Part shown: piece after piece, positions 14,415 through 51,731 of the stretch | Layout of the letters: every line of letters begins with the position of its first letter | Position numbering within the stretch: the stretch's first letter is position 1 | Assembly: GCA_021776195.1 (NCBI GenBank) | Contig: JAJFGK010000084.1 | Span: 1-52,812, forward strand | Direction: 5' to 3' | Source: Kiloniellaceae bacterium | GTDB lineage: Bacteria; Pseudomonadota; Alphaproteobacteria; Kiloniellales; Kiloniellaceae | Length of the DNA: 52,812 nt | The notes under the pieces: model-generated | The model's input: only the letters and a program-made list of their open reading frames with translations | The model's database searches: none | What the model was told of the DNA's origin: nothing | Program-made: the position numbers and the translations under genes

Positions 14415-14478
14415 GGCCCGTCTTGCGAATGGCCCGTCTTGCGAATGGCCCGACTTGAGAATGGCCCGACTTGCGATT
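14415..14478 (+). repeat. Four tandem 16-bp repeats just upstream of NAD kinase
   Basis: Four consecutive units follow the pattern GGCCCG(T/A)CTTGCGAAT: 14415-14430 and 14431-14446 are identical, 14447-14462 differs at two positions, and 14463-14478 at two. The array ends 8 bases before the nadK ATG and so would form its leader and ribosome-binding region. Related GTCTTGGCGCT words occur twice at 14310-14370. Confidence 0.8.
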
Positions 14479-14486
14479 GGAACGCC

Positions 14487-19722: not shown

Positions 19723-19877
19723 GACGTCCCCTCGCTCGCTGCCGCACCGGACGACACCGAAAAATCGACGCCGTCAAGGTCCTTCTTCGGGCCAAAGCCC
19801 TTTCTTTCTATTCCCTTATTTTGTATGTTTCATTCAAAGACAACCCAAATGTAGAGTTAGGCACTAGGGGATCGGCG

Positions 19878-20585
19878 GTGCAAACACTCGTTGTTGCCTC
19901 CCGCAAAGGGGGCTCCGGAAAGACCACGCTGACAGCCCACCTGGCGGTCGCGGCGGGCTTGAACCGCAAGGGTCCGGCGGCATTGATGGATCTCGACCCC
20001 CAGGGCAGCCTCGCCCACTGGTGGAACGAGCGGGGACAGGAAGAACCCTTCTACCTGCGCAGCACGATCGACCGCCTGCCCGAGGACCACGCGCGTCTGG
20101 CCGATGCCGGATTGAATCTGCTCTTCATCGACACGCCGCCGGTCTACAGCAAGACCCTCGACAAGGTGATCGCCCTGGCCGACCTGGTGCTGATTCCCTG
20201 TCGCCCGAGCCCGCACGATCTGCGCGCGGTCGGCGCGACCGTGAGCCAGGTCGAATCGCTCGGGAAGCCCTACGTCTTCGTGCTGAACGGCGCGCCCTGG
20301 CGGGCCCGCATGACCGCCGAGAGCGCGGCGATCCTCAAGGAGTTCGGTCCACTGTCTCCGGCCTTTATCTATAACCGCGTCGACCTGGCCTCGGGCATGG
20401 TCGGCGGCCTGACGGTCCTGGAAACCAAGTCGCGCTGCAAGGCCAGCCAGGAGGTCAGGACCCTCTGGCAGGATATCGCGGTGCGCCTGGAGAGCCTTCG
20501 GCTGGCCAAGGCCGCGGCAATCGATGCCCCGATCCAGGCCCCCTTGGTCAACCCCCTCTACCCCTCCGAACAAGTGGCGGTCTGA
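19878..20585 (+). CDS. Orphan ParA-family ATPase
   Basis: A 235-residue ParA/MinD-type ATPase. The deviant Walker A motif is SRKGGSGKTTL near residue 8, with the signature lysine; MDLDPQGSLAHW is the A' motif and LLFIDTPP the Walker B. I chose GTG 19878, with AGGGG 7 bases upstream, which places Walker A at the extreme N-terminus as usual. No parB follows; instead a SPOR-domain membrane protein starts 5 bases later. That makes chromosome partition unlikely and suggests positioning of some cell-pole or division component. Sequence does not say which. Confidence 0.88.
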   Translation: MQTLVVASRKGGSGKTTLTAHLAVAAGLNRKGPAALMDLDPQGSLAHWWNERGQEEPFYLRSTIDRLPEDHARLADAGLNLLFIDTPPVYSKTLDKVIALADLVLIPCRPSPHDLRAVGATVSQVESLGKPYVFVLNGAPWRARMTAESAAILKEFGPLSPAFIYNRVDLASGMVGGLTVLETKSRCKASQEVRTLWQDIAVRLESLRLAKAAAIDAPIQAPLVNPLYPSEQVAV

Positions 20586-20590
20586 CCGCT

Positions 20591-21658
20591 ATGTCGAGAA
20601 AGGATCTCGCCGCCACGGCGCTTTTCGCCGAAAAGGGAGCCGCGCGCCCAACCGCGCTCGCGACGTCGGAACGCAGGGTTCGCATGGATAGCGAAGGTGC
20701 GTCGGCAGGCGCCCCGGGGCGCGTCATTCGACTGACCCGCCGCCCAAAGGAAGCGCCCGCGGCGCTACTGCCCTTCGAAGAAGGCCTGCCGCTCGAGGAG
20801 GATCCGAGCGGCACCGGAAGCCTGGTCGAGTTTGCGCTGCAGCGGGTCGAGCCGGTCGGGGCCGAGCCGGTCGGGGCCAAGGCGGTTCAAGAACTGCTCG
20901 TCACGGCGTCCGAATCGGCTGTCACGGAACCCGCTGCCGTGCCGCCCTCCTGGATACGATCGGGCTCGGGTCTGGCCGCCGCGATCGCGGCGGCGATCGT
21001 TCTGGCGATCGGCGTTTGGCTGGCGGCGGGCCGCGACGGGCCATCGGTCGGCCGCACACCGTCGGAGATCGAGACGCGGGCCCCAGCCATCGCAAACCTG
21101 CCGGCCCCAACCCAGGCGGCTCCAGTTCAGGAGGCACAGGCGCTGCTCCCGCCGACGGCCTCGGATCGAGAGGCCGGGCGCGCCGGCAAGGTTCACGTGC
21201 CCGCTGTCGTATCGCTGCCCAGCGGCCGGCGAGATCCCGCCGTGCCCCGGCAAGTGGCGGTCACCGAGGAGCTCGCGGCCTTCGACCCCACCGGCCTGGC
21301 CAAGCCGGCCAAGCCGGCCGCGCTCGGTCAGGTTTCCGCGACCGCGATCGCGGCCCCGCCGCCGACCCCGGCCCGCAAGCCCGATCAGACGATCTTGAGC
21401 GGGTCCGGTTACTGGCTTCAGCTCTTCGCCGGGCGCAATCCGCGCCGAACCGACACAGAGCGCCTGCGCCTGGCGCAGGATCACGCCGACCTTCTGGGAA
21501 CCCATTCCCTGCAGGTGGTCGCTGCCGAAATCGAGGGCTACGGGACCTTTTACCGCATCCGCACGGACATCATCCGCGACCGCAGGGAGGCCAACGCCCT
21601 CTGTGAACGCCTGATGGCGCGCGACCAGGAATGCCTCCCGCTCAAGGTCGCGCCCTGA
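20591..21658 (+). CDS. SPOR-domain membrane protein
   Basis: A 355-residue bitopic protein: a cytoplasmic N-terminus of about 120 residues, one transmembrane helix (GLAAAIAAAIVLAIGVWLAAG), a Pro/Ala-rich linker, and a C-terminal SPOR domain (GYWLQLFAGRNPRR through DQECLPLKVAP). SPOR domains bind denuded peptidoglycan at septa. Expected location is the division site. It is the second gene of an operon with an orphan ParA (5-base gap), so the ATPase may position or regulate it; that is inference. It ends 21 bases from the opposing TPR gene. Confidence 0.82.
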   Translation: MSRKDLAATALFAEKGAARPTALATSERRVRMDSEGASAGAPGRVIRLTRRPKEAPAALLPFEEGLPLEEDPSGTGSLVEFALQRVEPVGAEPVGAKAVQELLVTASESAVTEPAAVPPSWIRSGSGLAAAIAAAIVLAIGVWLAAGRDGPSVGRTPSEIETRAPAIANLPAPTQAAPVQEAQALLPPTASDREAGRAGKVHVPAVVSLPSGRRDPAVPRQVAVTEELAAFDPTGLAKPAKPAALGQVSATAIAAPPPTPARKPDQTILSGSGYWLQLFAGRNPRRTDTERLRLAQDHADLLGTHSLQVVAAEIEGYGTFYRIRTDIIRDRREANALCERLMARDQECLPLKVAP

Positions 21659-24399: not shown

Positions 24400-24429
24400 T
24401 GCGCTGAGCGCCGCTGGGCCAAGAACCAA

Positions 24430-24459
24430 CGCGCCCCCTCGGCGAGGGGGCGCGTTTTT
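24430..24459 (+). terminator. Rho-independent terminator of the bactofilin gene
   Basis: An 11-bp stem CGCGCCCCCTC/GAGGGGGCGCG with a 3-base loop (24430-24454), followed by TTTTT. It starts 30 bases after the bactofilin stop. Confidence 0.85.
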
Positions 24460-24498: not shown

Positions 24499-25047
24499 TC
24501 AGGTCAGCACCCGTCCTAGTGCGAGCGCGATCTCCGCCGGATCGTCGAAGAAACTCAATCCGATCTGGGTTTCCGTTTTCCACACCACCTTGCCGGCAAA
24601 GGCGCCGATGCGCTCGTTCTTGATGATCGCCGAGTCGCCAACTTCGAGGCTCTCGGAGGCCTGAACCATCGCCCCCTCGGCCGATATGTTGATGATCACG
24701 CAGTCGACGGCCTTGTCGTCGAACAGAATTCGGCTCGTCCAGAGCACAGTGGCCCGCTCATAGCGTCGGCGTTCCGGTATCGCGGCGGCGGTCCCTTCAT
24801 CCGCCACGACAGGCTCTCCTTCGATGGCCTGGCCCTCGATGACCGTGGCAGCCCCTGCCTCGATCCCCTGGCCACTTTCCGCTCCAGCCGTGAGACCTAT
24901 GTCTTCCGGAGGGAGTCCGAACTGAGAATCGCCGCTCTTTATCTCATTCATAGCGAGCATCCTGTCTCCGAGGGAATCCAGGCTCAACCCGTTCCCGGGT
25001 GCGGGCCCAGAAGCAATCTCTTGCTTTTTCACGTTGCCGAAACTCAT
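24499..25047 (-). CDS. PilZ-domain protein (probable c-di-GMP receptor)
   Basis: A 182-residue protein. Residues 1-90 are low-complexity and unrecognised; residues 91-180 form a PilZ domain. The c-di-GMP contacts are intact: R94xxxR98 in ERRRYERA and N120xS122xxG125 in NISAEGAMV. The protein ends GLSFFDDPAEIALALGRVLT. It starts 20 bases after the giant coiled-coil gene on the same strand, so the two are co-transcribed. No membrane segment. It probably transmits c-di-GMP levels to a partner; the coiled-coil protein is the obvious candidate, by inference. Confidence 0.87.
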   Translation of the reverse strand: MSFGNVKKQEIASGPAPGNGLSLDSLGDRMLAMNEIKSGDSQFGLPPEDIGLTAGAESGQGIEAGAATVIEGQAIEGEPVVADEGTAAAIPERRRYERATVLWTSRILFDDKAVDCVIINISAEGAMVQASESLEVGDSAIIKNERIGAFAGKVVWKTETQIGLSFFDDPAEIALALGRVLT

Positions 25048-25067: not shown

Positions 25068-28000
25068 TTAGCGGCCCTCCAGGCTCTGGACCTGCAGTGG
25101 CTGCGCATGAACAGCCTGCTCCGCATTCGAGTCATGAGAGATTGGTGCGCCCTGGAGCGTGAGATGGCCGGCGAGCAGAATCACGACGGAGGCGCGCAGC
25201 ACGCGTTTCGCACCGTCGCTCTGCAGGTTTTCACGCAGGGACCGCACGGATTGCCGGCTGAGTTTCTGGCGTTCTTCGGCCTTCTCGCGCGCTTCGTTTT
25301 CACGCGCGCGGCGTTCTTCGGCCGCGCGGGCCAGTTCCAAGGCCTCTTTTTCAGCCTGTTCGGCCCGCCAGGTGGCGATCTCCACAGCCCGCCGCTGCGC
25401 CGCATCGGCGCGCTCCGCGGGGCTTGCGTTCTCTTCTTCGACCTCGGTGTCGGCTTCGCGCTCCGCCTCGGCGTCGCGCAAACGCTGATGAAAGGCGTCC
25501 GCGTTCCGCTTCGTGATCTCCTCGACCGAGCTCGGCGCCGCCTGGGCAGCCGTTTCGCCGTCGCCTTGTGCCGAGGCCAGGAAGTTGCGCAGCAAGGCCA
25601 GTTCCTGGTCCTCCAGGGCACCCGTCGCCTGGCCGTCCTTGCCGGTCACCATCTTGATGTCTTTCAACTGGTCGGCCAGGGCGGATAACTGCTCTTGCAG
25701 GCGATGGTTCTGCTGCTGCGACTCGCGCAAAGCGGCCTCGGCCATCTCCCGGCGCGCACTCTCGCCCTTGGAGGCGGATTCGGCCTGGAGGAGACGCTCT
25801 TCCATGGACTTGCGGCGGTCGACACTGTCGTCACGAATCTCGTCCAGCCGCTCGCGCCACATCTCGTCATTGGCGGTCAGGCGCTGATTGAGCTCGGTCA
25901 CGAACTTCGACTGCAGTTCCGCCGTCGTGGCCTGGCGCTTGGCTTGCCAGCTGTTCTCGACCTCGATCAGCCGCTTTTCGGTGTCGCTACGCCAGCGCTC
26001 TTCGACGGCATTCACTTCCCTGATCGTTTGGCTCTTCAGACTGCCTTCGGCCTCTGCCAGGCGCCGGGAGGTTTCGGTCTCCCAGGCGACCTTTGCCTCC
26101 TGCAGCCTCTCGCGCTCCCCGGCGCGTTGCTCGTCGAGTCGGCGCTGCCACTCTTGATCCTTGTCCGCGGCCTGCTTCGAGACTTGGTTCTGCCAGCGGG
26201 ATTCGGCTTTTGAAAGTTCCTGCTCCGAGTCGCGGCGCCAGGTGTCGCGGAGCTGCGAAAGGCGCGCCTCGGATTCCAGAGACGCGTGCTGGGCGGCCAG
26301 CTCGACCTCTCGGACGAGTCTCTCCTGCCAGGTCTTTTCGATCTCCGCTAGCGTCTTGCGATGATCGGAATCCAAGGACCGGAAGGCCTCGGCATGGCGG
26401 CCCTCCGCTTCCGTCAGGGCCAACTGCTGACGCTCCCGCCAGTCCGCTTCGGTTTTGGCGATCTGCGCGCTGGTTTCCTCTTCCCAGGTCTCCCGGGCCG
26501 TGGCGAGACTGCCCTCCGCCTCTTCGGTCAGGCGCTGTTCGAGCGCCTCGAGTTCCAGCGCATGCTCGGCTGCCCATTCGGCGCGGGCCGCTTCCAGACG
26601 GTGCTGAACTCGAGCTTCCGTGACCGCCGCGAGACCGGCGGCATCGGCCGGCAGATCAGCGGCTTCGGCCTGCTGGGCAAACTCCTCTAGCCAGCCCTTG
26701 CGGGCTTCTTCCAGGCGCCGGGCAAGTTCGGCTTCCTGGTCGCGGCGCAGGGCGGCGACCCGGCGTTCGGTTTGCCGCGCCCACGTGCCCTTGGCCTGTT
26801 CGATCGCCTCTTCGCGGCGGCACTCGGCCTCGGCCTCGAGGGCCTGGATACGATCCTCGGTTTCCTGAAGCCATGTGGAGCGCGCCTCGGCAAGGCGGTC
26901 CTCCGCCGCGCGCTTGACCGCGTCGATGGCGCTCGCGGTCCGCTTGTCGGCCTCTTCGTCCCAACGGCCCCGTTCCAGCTCCAGGCGGCGGTTGGCTTCC
27001 ACTTCGAACTGCTTGCGGCTCTCGGCCAGTTTCAGCTCGGTCTTTGCCTTCCAGCTTTCCTCGCTTTCCCGCAGCCGATCTTCAGCCTCGGTCTGCCAAA
27101 CGGCCTCCTGGTCGAGCAGCCGCTCGGCTTCCGCTTCGGACCAGGTCGCCTCGGCGCGCAGCAGCTTGGCTTCGAGTTCGTCCTCCCAAAGCGCGCGCGA
27201 CTTCTCCAGCTTCTGCTCGCTCTCGCGCTTGACCGCGGTCACGGACTCGGCGATGCGACGCTCGCCCTCCCGGCGCCACTCCTGCTTTGCCTCTTCGAGT
27301 TTACGCTTGCTGTCTTCGGACCAGGCGGCATCGGCCTCGGCCATGCGTTGGTCGGCGGCGGCCTGCTCGGCAGCCTTGACCTCGGCCAGTCCGCGCTCGG
27401 ACGCTCTCTCCCACTCGCGCCTGGCATTCGCCAATTGGTCGTCGGCTTGACGCTTCCAGTCCTGACGCGCCTCGGACAACTGGCGATCGGCTTCGGCACG
27501 CCAGGCCGATTCCGTCTGCGCCAGAGTGGCGCGGGATTCTTCCTGCCATTCGCGCCGCGCGCTGTTGAGCCGCCGGTCGGCCTCCAGGGACCACTGGGAC
27601 TCCCGCGCCGCCAGCCGCTCTTCTTCCTCGATCAGCCAGCGCTCGCGCGCTTCTTCGATGCGTTGCTCGATGACCGCCGCACGGGATTCCTCGGTCGCCT
27701 CGGCGCGGGTTCGCTCGGCGTCCTGCCAGGCCGTTTCGACCCGCGAAAGGTCGTCGGCGATTTCGGCGCGCAGGCTGGCTTCACGCCGCGCCAGCCGTTC
27801 TTCGACCTCGGCCTCCCAAACCGAGCGGGCGGCCGCCAGCCGGTTGTGCATTTCGCTCTTGTGGACTTCCTCCAGCTGGGCCAGCCGCTGGGTTTCCTTG
27901 GTCTGCCAGGCGGTCACCTCTTTGGAAAGGCGCTCTTCCGCTTCGGCGCGAAGCGACACCTCGAGTTCCGCGCGCTGGCTCTTGCTCTCGGCCCGCCAGC

Positions 28001-28553
28001 GCGCCTCGATCTTGGCGAGACGCTCGGCCTCCTGCTCATGCCATTGGGTCTCGGCGCCGGCCAGAGAAGCCTGCAGCTTTTCTTCGAGTTCGGCTTCCCA
28101 GGCTTTGCGCGCGACCAGCAAGGCCTCCTTGACCCGCTCGCCAAGAACCGACTCCTGCAGCGCCTCCGGAGTCACCAGGGTCACGGCGATATCGAACAGT
28201 GCCACCGTCGTGGCGATGTTATGGGCTTCCTCATCGACCTTGAGCACGCGGATGGTCAGGTCATAGGAATCTTCCGGCGAGCTGTCGGCCGGAAACATCA
28301 GCTGGAGTTCGTCGGTTTGATAGGGCGTCAGGGACCAGCTGCAATCGCCCTTGTTACGGCCGTTGGACAGGCGGGCGCCCGGCGGCATGTCTTCGACGGT
28401 GATCGAATAGTCCTCGCTGCCGTCACGCAACATCAGACCACGTTCGGCCAGGGCCTCGTCGAGCGGAAAGGAAAAGGCTTTGACGTCCGCGCCTTGCGCT
28501 TCCGCCTTGGCTTTTTTGCTTCGGGCCGATTTTGACCGCATGTCGATCAGCAC
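25068..28553 (-). CDS. Giant coiled-coil protein built of Trp-marked 15-residue repeats
   Basis: 1161 residues. Residues 1-20 are basic. Residues 26-126 resemble an Ig/cadherin-like beta domain found in large repeat proteins (SITVEDMPPGARLS, then WSLTPYQTDELQLMFP). Residues 152-899 are almost continuous 15-residue units, pattern W-x-x-E-A-E-x-R-L-A-E-A-x-x-x, with 33 Trp in one register. Residues 900-1110 are ordinary charged coiled coil. Residues 1118-1138 (VLRASVVILLAGHLTLQGAPI) are a weak hydrophobic segment that might anchor the C-terminus. There is no signal peptide. The 4-4-3-4 core spacing predicts a right-handed coil. No homologue recognised. A scaffold or filament role is inferred; operon mate is PilZ. 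Similar repeats could be misread as SMC or myosin. Confidence 0.85.
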   Translation of the reverse strand: MLIDMRSKSARSKKAKAEAQGADVKAFSFPLDEALAERGLMLRDGSEDYSITVEDMPPGARLSNGRNKGDCSWSLTPYQTDELQLMFPADSSPEDSYDLTIRVLKVDEEAHNIATTVALFDIAVTLVTPEALQESVLGERVKEALLVARKAWEAELEEKLQASLAGAETQWHEQEAERLAKIEARWRAESKSQRAELEVSLRAEAEERLSKEVTAWQTKETQRLAQLEEVHKSEMHNRLAAARSVWEAEVEERLARREASLRAEIADDLSRVETAWQDAERTRAEATEESRAAVIEQRIEEARERWLIEEEERLAARESQWSLEADRRLNSARREWQEESRATLAQTESAWRAEADRQLSEARQDWKRQADDQLANARREWERASERGLAEVKAAEQAAADQRMAEADAAWSEDSKRKLEEAKQEWRREGERRIAESVTAVKRESEQKLEKSRALWEDELEAKLLRAEATWSEAEAERLLDQEAVWQTEAEDRLRESEESWKAKTELKLAESRKQFEVEANRRLELERGRWDEEADKRTASAIDAVKRAAEDRLAEARSTWLQETEDRIQALEAEAECRREEAIEQAKGTWARQTERRVAALRRDQEAELARRLEEARKGWLEEFAQQAEAADLPADAAGLAAVTEARVQHRLEAARAEWAAEHALELEALEQRLTEEAEGSLATARETWEEETSAQIAKTEADWRERQQLALTEAEGRHAEAFRSLDSDHRKTLAEIEKTWQERLVREVELAAQHASLESEARLSQLRDTWRRDSEQELSKAESRWQNQVSKQAADKDQEWQRRLDEQRAGERERLQEAKVAWETETSRRLAEAEGSLKSQTIREVNAVEERWRSDTEKRLIEVENSWQAKRQATTAELQSKFVTELNQRLTANDEMWRERLDEIRDDSVDRRKSMEERLLQAESASKGESARREMAEAALRESQQQNHRLQEQLSALADQLKDIKMVTGKDGQATGALEDQELALLRNFLASAQGDGETAAQAAPSSVEEITKRNADAFHQRLRDAEAEREADTEVEEENASPAERADAAQRRAVEIATWRAEQAEKEALELARAAEERRARENEAREKAEERQKLSRQSVRSLRENLQSDGAKRVLRASVVILLAGHLTLQGAPISHDSNAEQAVHAQPLQVQSLEGR
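25857..28100 (-). repeat. DNA encoding about 50 pentadecad units of the coiled-coil protein
   Basis: Trp codons fall at residues 152, 171, 186, 216, 246, 276, 306, 321, 336, 351, 366, 381, 411, 426, 456, 471, 486, 501, 531, 561, 591, 621, 660, 690, 705, 742, 772, 787, 802, 824, 854, 869 and 899. All spacings are 15 or 30 except 19, 39, 37 and 22. The 39-residue break (621-660) holds a Pro and Ala-rich segment that looks like a hinge. The DNA repeats are strongly diverged, so this is old and maintained by selection on the protein. Confidence 0.9.
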
Positions 28554-51626: not shown

Positions 51627-51680
51627 GGCCAGGCCGGCCACGGGCAATTCGAAGGTCTGCCCGAAGGTTTGCAGAAAACC

Positions 51681-51731
51681 TTTCGATTCTCTCGACCTCT
51701 CGATTCTCCCGGCCTTTCGAATCTCCCGGCC
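51681..51731 (+). repeat. Three tandem 17-bp repeats upstream of the MoxR gene
   Basis: Three adjoining units of the form (T)TTCGATTCTCCCGGCC at 51681-51697, 51698-51714 and 51715-51731, differing at a few positions each. They lie 70-120 bases before the MoxR start in an otherwise featureless gap and may be regulatory or slippage-derived. Confidence 0.7.

Follow-up and report, generated by a model that had tools for sequence, protein, structure and literature searches.

We analyzed a contig from a bacterium of the family Kiloniellaceae (GenBank assembly GCA_021776195.1, contig JAJFGK010000084.1, positions 1 to 52,812 of the forward strand). We refer to this whole stretch of 52,812 nucleotides as the window. 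One of its genes encodes a large protein, P0001. Judging from its periodicity and its relatives, P0001 contains a real, diverged array of 15-residue repeats (pentadecads), and it belongs to an alphaproteobacterial family that has no curated name. Next to it is a gene for a PilZ protein. A preliminary description of the window had picked out the open reading frame of P0001, and its frame and coordinates are correct:

25068..28553, minus strand: whole gene, product P0001 (1161 amino acids: head, pentadecad coil, and C-terminal hydrophobic segment)

The frame has 1161 codons and a GTG start, and about 8 nucleotides upstream of the GTG is AGGAAGGA.

P0001 has 35 tryptophans, and 33 of these are within residues 152-899. 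As was first reported, and as an independent recount gave exactly, the spacings between them are 15 or 30 residues, with four exceptions (19, 39, 37, and 22). Thus, 28 of the 32 spacings are multiples of 15. When we shuffled residues 152-899 (10,000 times), the average was 1.55 such spacings and the maximum was 7. The dominant period of the hydrophobic residues (VILMFWY) in a Fourier analysis is 3.755 residues, with a peak power of 48.7, or 27.9 if tryptophan is excluded. With tryptophan included, the power is just 0.9 at a period of 3.5 and 1.1 at 3.667, so this check agrees with the preliminary description. The period is also stable along the protein: we considered five segments of 127-168 residues each, within residues 141-900, and every peak was at 3.725-3.75. 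Residues 901-990 have a weak peak at 3.51, which is heptad-like.

We also built a profile of the repeat unit from 171 units in 8 relatives, with P0001 left out. This profile tiles P0001 with 41 units, of which 38 start within residues 152-869. In shuffled versions of residues 141-900 (n = 500), it found 4.8 units on average and at most 11. The original estimate of about 50 repeats is reasonable as the room available, but only about 38 units are recognizable. Identity between pairs of P0001 units is low (mean 22% and maximum 60% among 42 units), and Tandem Repeats Finder reported no 45-bp array in the repeat region of the gene, so the units are not the product of recent duplication of DNA. By these comparisons, the repeats are an old, diverged array that has been kept over long evolution. 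P0001 is rich in glutamate (20%), alanine (17%), and arginine (13%).

The array is one part of a longer layout, which we assembled from alignments, tryptophan spacings, hydropathy, and structure prediction:

28170..28478, minus strand: predicted N-terminal beta-sandwich head, residues ~26-128, with the motif GRNxGDxSWSL (alignments of 8 and 18 sequences, and AlphaFold2)
26661..28100, minus strand: pentadecad arm 1, residues 152-631, with a tryptophan every 15 or 30 residues once past the first spacing of 19
26634..26660, minus strand: hinge, residues 632-640, with P635 and G640, within the off-register spacing of 39 residues from W621 to W660
25815..26633, minus strand: pentadecad arm 2, residues 641-913 (tryptophan spacing, period, and unit profile)
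25656..25814, minus strand: heptad-like coil, residues 914-966 (weak period of 3.51, from residues 901-990)
25224..25421, minus strand: charged (basic) helix, residues 1045-1110, as a block with pLDDT of 73-88 (predicted local distance difference test); relatives are laid out similarly
25146..25202, minus strand: C-terminal hydrophobic segment, residues 1118-1136, mean hydropathy 1.47, then a 25-residue tail; a possible membrane anchor

The head is conserved in both alignments, and when we modelled 130 residues, it was predicted to be a beta-sandwich (mean pLDDT of 82.6). Outside of the head, the AlphaFold2 monomer of the whole protein is mostly helical, with low confidence (mean pLDDT of 61.8 and predicted template modelling score, or pTM, of 0.28). 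The helices of this model are at residues 139-278, 292-425, 434-631, 639-725, 729-753, 783-836, 841-924, and a few others, so the hinge is one of several helix breaks. P635 is the only proline between residues 138 and 1006. It falls in the 39-residue spacing, so the array is not a single uniform helix. The ladder of tryptophans does run from residue 152 to 899, but the continuous coil of about 750 residues that had been proposed is interrupted by the proline hinge, and after about residue 900 it gives way to the weak heptad-like period. P0001 has no hydrophobic stretch within its first 100 residues, by hydropathy, and no Pfam family at E up to 0.1.

Across 125 units from P0001, P0002, L011, L014, and L008, the consensus is W1 (73%), A3, E4, E or A5, E6, R8 (61%), L9 (64%), A10, E or A11, A12, E or R13, and A14. 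The core runs L9-A12-W16-x20, with spacings of 3-4-4-4, which is the published a-d-h-l order of a pentadecad. (Pentadecads are defined by a core at a-d-h-l, spacings of 3-4-4-4, and 3.75 residues per turn, and are expected to form right-handed supercoils that are as strong as the left-handed supercoils of heptads; PMC9858780, PMC4786415.) The preliminary description had proposed a core of W1, A5, L9, and A12. Among 42 units of P0001, W1 is hydrophobic in 86% and L9 in 88%, but the other two positions are weak: position 12 is alanine in 38% and hydrophobic or alanine in 67%, while position 5 is alanine in 24%. P0001 therefore has hydrophobic residues at 3-4-4-4 and a period of 15/4, with positions 5 and 12 weakly hydrophobic. 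A stripe of charged residues (E4-R8-E11-R15) flanks the hydrophobic seam, and an alanine stripe (3, 10, 14) lies on the other side; both keep the same 15-residue frame as the core. Given the period of 3.75 and the 3-4-4-4 core, the supercoil is expected to be right-handed, and we think that the arms of P0001 probably do form a right-handed coiled coil. This retains the basis of the original proposal, but its handedness, its oligomers, and its tryptophan core come from this expectation and not from a calculation.

The preliminary description recognized no family like P0001, which turned out to be wrong. We found seven homologs with phmmer, and each has the head, the coil, and an SH3 match after a hydrophobic helix (above Pfam's cut-off in six of them). 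A scan of named genomes identified 19 loci, of which 16 belong to the P0001 family (L010 nearly duplicates L009) while the other 3 encode giant repeat proteins. Profile searches of whole genomes, at E of 1e-18, added more. Within the order of genome G006, 36 of 96 genomes were positive, and within the order of G012, 21 of 61 were. In smaller orders, 1 of 9 (order of G013), 1 of 2 (order of G010), and 1 of 1 (order of G014) were positive. (Some of the weaker matches in these searches come from repeats within longer frames.) The two larger orders together have 57 positive genomes; we fetched 33 loci from these and recovered the family's reading frame in 30 (all but L145, L148, and L149). We also sampled 385 genomes evenly across the class, and 34 of them had a match resembling the head (1e-10), mostly within long multi-repeat frames. 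Members are known from Kiloniellales (L013 and L016) and from Rhizomicrobium (P0005; the name is the source's). By these searches, the family spans several alphaproteobacterial orders and combines the head and the coil with, usually, a predicted transmembrane helix and, often, a bacterial SH3 domain. Neither the head nor the coil matched a Pfam or NCBIfam model above its cut-off in the members we scanned (seven members for NCBIfam).

Some relatives, distant ones included, have the same tryptophan register, as the preliminary description suggested looking for. For example, the spacings are multiples of 15 in 27 of 32 cases for L140, 21 of 29 for L135, 18 of 26 for L132, 18 of 22 for L147, and 23 of 31 for L011. 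At least 13 spacings are multiples of 15 in 9 of the 30 recovered members, all from the order of G012. Most relatives have a hydrophobic C-terminal helix with basic residues ahead of it. Five (L132, L134, L137, L138, and L140) end like P0001, with a hydrophobic segment and a tail of 19-25 amino acids, and hence have no SH3 domain.

A few other features of the relatives can be mentioned here. In L013, L016, and L130, the strongest period, though weak, is still 3.75-3.78. L139, L142, and L144 lack a strongly hydrophobic helix; their C-terminal ends are short stretches of tryptophan, phenylalanine, and lysine, which might be amphipathic membrane binders. A relative of the head also occurs in a second protein (L056 7780-10503, from G010), which has a long low-complexity part, a hydrophobic segment, then the head-like domain, and an end that looks Sel1/TPR-like by eye. 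Downstream of the family gene in L132, L134, L136, L137, and L138 is a conserved gene of 461-479 amino acids; the one copy that we scanned had a weak TPR match alone.

Just past P0001 is the PilZ gene:

24499..25047, minus strand: gene for the PilZ protein P0009 (182 amino acids), which starts 20 nucleotides past the stop codon of P0001; PilZ domain at residues 92-171, with RxxxR and NxSxxG
24428..24456, no strand assigned: 13-pair hairpin after the PilZ gene, a possible end of the transcription unit; it is weak and was called on the plus strand only

(The region has 7 terminator-like sites, and shuffled sequences have 7.0 on average.) The motifs of PilZ domains for binding c-di-GMP are described as RxxxR and DxSxxG (PMC7288161). 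We searched 52 loci for PilZ genes with the PilZ proteins of the window and of L015 as queries; some loci have short flanks, divergent PilZ proteins could be missed, and the family's frame was itself not recovered in L051, L145, L148, and L149. A PilZ gene adjoins the family gene in L015 (54 nucleotides away), L135 (91), and L140 (9), each time upstream and on the same strand. In the four PilZ proteins that are linked to the family, R94, R98, N120, S122, and G125 are invariant, and the second motif has asparagine instead of aspartate. P0009 is a likely receptor for c-di-GMP. Across eight genomes there are 27 PilZ domains in all, which we fetched as 23 regions, and the single one in G014 is the neighbor of the family gene. 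Among the 23 regions, the best matches to the window's PilZ protein are the three relatives' neighbors (89, 67, and 62 bits), and with L015's PilZ protein as the query, the first match after itself is the neighbor in L140. In this part of the family, the PilZ partners look orthologous.

Where in the cell would P0001 be? According to the positive-inside rule, basic residues that flank a membrane helix mark its cytoplasmic side. P0001 has no N-terminal hydrophobic stretch, and basic residues precede the hydrophobic segment, so the head and the coil would lie in the cytoplasm. We suggest that P0001 would be a rod-forming scaffold along the inside of the cell envelope, with one end of the rod anchored in the inner membrane by the C-terminal segment. 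In many relatives, the SH3 domain beyond the membrane segment could contact the cell wall. The cytoplasmic head would bind a partner, and the PilZ protein might tie assembly or partner binding to c-di-GMP. We give even odds to P0001 being a cytoplasmic, membrane-tethered scaffold, and we lean towards the PilZ protein P0009 being its functional partner. The full combination, a membrane-tethered cytoplasmic scaffold with a pentadecad coiled coil and a link to c-di-GMP, is our favored reading, and we rate its chances as somewhat below even.

Several observations weigh against this combination. The PilZ neighbor is present in only 4 of 53 loci (including the window), and it is downstream of the family gene in the window but upstream in the three relatives. 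The margin between PilZ proteins is modest: the third neighbor scores 62 bits and the next protein 57, and for the query from L015, a non-neighbor (L185) ties with the neighbor in L135 at 66.2 bits. No polar or division gene was found among the neighbors that we scanned. The ladder is not family-wide, as the peak is within 3.73-3.78 in just 10 of 23 members, and L013, L016, and L130 have two tryptophans each. Other relatives of the head are repeats of large, extracellular-looking proteins (among them the giant repeat proteins L017-L019). As for P0001 itself, the low-confidence model breaks at 279-291, 426-433, and 754-782 as well as at the hinge. Its C-terminal segment is only weakly hydrophobic (1.47) and lies mainly where pLDDT is below 50, with no confident helix there in the model. 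The Pfam scan found no SH3 domain in P0001, whose tail beyond this segment is just 25 residues.

Alternatively, P0001 could be an exported surface protein, with the head serving as an adhesin domain and the right-handed coil as a stalk like that of YadA; export would be by a type I system or another route without an N-terminal signal. We consider this improbable. The first 100 residues lack a hydrophobic stretch, and there is no anchor or secretion domain from Pfam. Also, in most relatives, the basic residues before the C-terminal helix would put the head and the coil in the cytoplasm, and the neighboring PilZ protein has no membrane or secretion domain in Pfam.

It is equally doubtful that the arms fold back at the hinge and pack as an antiparallel bundle, which would make a shorter rod and would not need a coil between chains. 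The model does have a helix break at the hinge, and a proline lies in an off-register interruption in the middle of the ladder in 10 of the 13 strong-ladder members (P0001, P0002, L131, L132, L134, L135, L136, L137, L138, and L140); in five members, the off-register spacing is 29 residues. But the arms of P0001 are unequal (480 vs. about 270 residues), and the monomer model (pTM of 0.28) does not confidently pack the arms against each other. Furthermore, the other three strong-ladder members have no proline-containing break of the register at the center: L147 has a ladder without proline, L011 has one mid-ladder proline with the register unbroken, and L014 has a proline near the end of the ladder only.

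Least probable is an unpaired helix, either a single charged one or an amphipathic one on the membrane with its tryptophans at the lipid surface. The richness in glutamate, alanine, and arginine would fit this, as would the E4-R8 and E11-R15 spacings, which suit intrahelical salt bridges, and the tryptophan and arginine beside a hydrophobic stripe, which suit membrane surfaces. But a lone charged helix has no need of a hydrophobic seam, and since a straight helix has 3.63 residues per turn (PMC9858780), a stripe with a period of 3.75 would, by our arithmetic, circle it once per ~114 residues and could not face a flat membrane over 700 residues.

Returning to the scaffold with a pentadecad coil, its core (a, d, h, l; 3-4-4-4; 3.75 residues per turn) is like that of the YadA stalk and of VASP. 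The tetramerization domain of VASP is a right-handed coiled coil of 15-residue repeats, and the preliminary description gave it as the precedent. This was incomplete, as the stalk of YadA has ten right-handed 15-residue repeats (PMC3539135). P0001 has about 38 recognizable units instead of ten. Unlike in YadA or VASP, one core position is occupied by tryptophan in most of its units, and its head and its end are different. In particular, Pfam (at E up to 0.1) found no C-terminal beta anchor of the YadA type.

In its way of working, P0001 might resemble scaffolds such as PodJ of Caulobacter. PodJ is described as having six coiled coils, a disordered region, TPR and peptidoglycan-binding domains, and a transmembrane anchor (PMC8980812). 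Like PodJ, the P0001 family would have its coiled coils in the cytoplasm, a transmembrane segment as an anchor, and (in many relatives) a domain of a wall-binding type beyond it. However, P0001 would not be a member of that group: its family has a beta-sandwich head, a coil of another kind (pentadecad), and SH3 or nothing at the end. PodJ's TPR and peptidoglycan-binding domains, which come after its single transmembrane segment, were not found, as P0001 has no Pfam domain and the phmmer homologs have SH3 instead. GPR, the growth pole ring protein of Agrobacterium, is another alphaproteobacterial protein with very long helices at the membrane. It is described as having two N-terminal transmembrane domains and apolipoprotein-like (PF01442) regions (PMC8262873); neither feature was found in P0001 (by hydropathy and Pfam, respectively). 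FilP, Scy, and related proteins are described as coiled-coil proteins for cell division in Gram-positive bacteria, with a shared conserved motif (PMC9858780). They are similar to P0001 as bacterial coiled-coil proteins, and we set them beside it by description alone.

The natural precedent for a right-handed stalk of 15-residue units, YadA, has ten repeats, and the P0001 family has long, diverged arrays that are anchored by tryptophan. With such arrays, nature would offer a set of cases for testing what specifies a right-handed supercoil and over what length one can run. (Coiled coils that are not heptads are said to be difficult for predictors and for AlphaFold; this was stated for hendecads, PMC11676326.) Because of the pairing with PilZ, the function can be tested as that of an envelope scaffold linked to c-di-GMP in alphaproteobacteria. 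More speculatively, the family could represent a new type of rod or filament in bacteria, built as a giant right-handed coiled coil with a hinge, several times the length of YadA's ten-repeat stalk, with a core lined by tryptophan, a tether in the inner membrane, and a dedicated, co-inherited receptor for c-di-GMP as a switch. We think that this is unlikely to be correct in full.

Elsewhere in the window, a gene for a MipZ/ParA-like ATPase and then a gene for a SPOR-domain protein are on the plus strand at 19821-21658, about 3-5 kb from the PilZ gene. A 16-bp tandem repeat (14415-14480; 4.1 copies and 92% matches) lies within the reading frame of an NAD-kinase-like protein, and a 17-bp tandem repeat (51679-51731; 3.1 copies) lies about 1 kb ahead of the tRNA-Lys at the end of the window.

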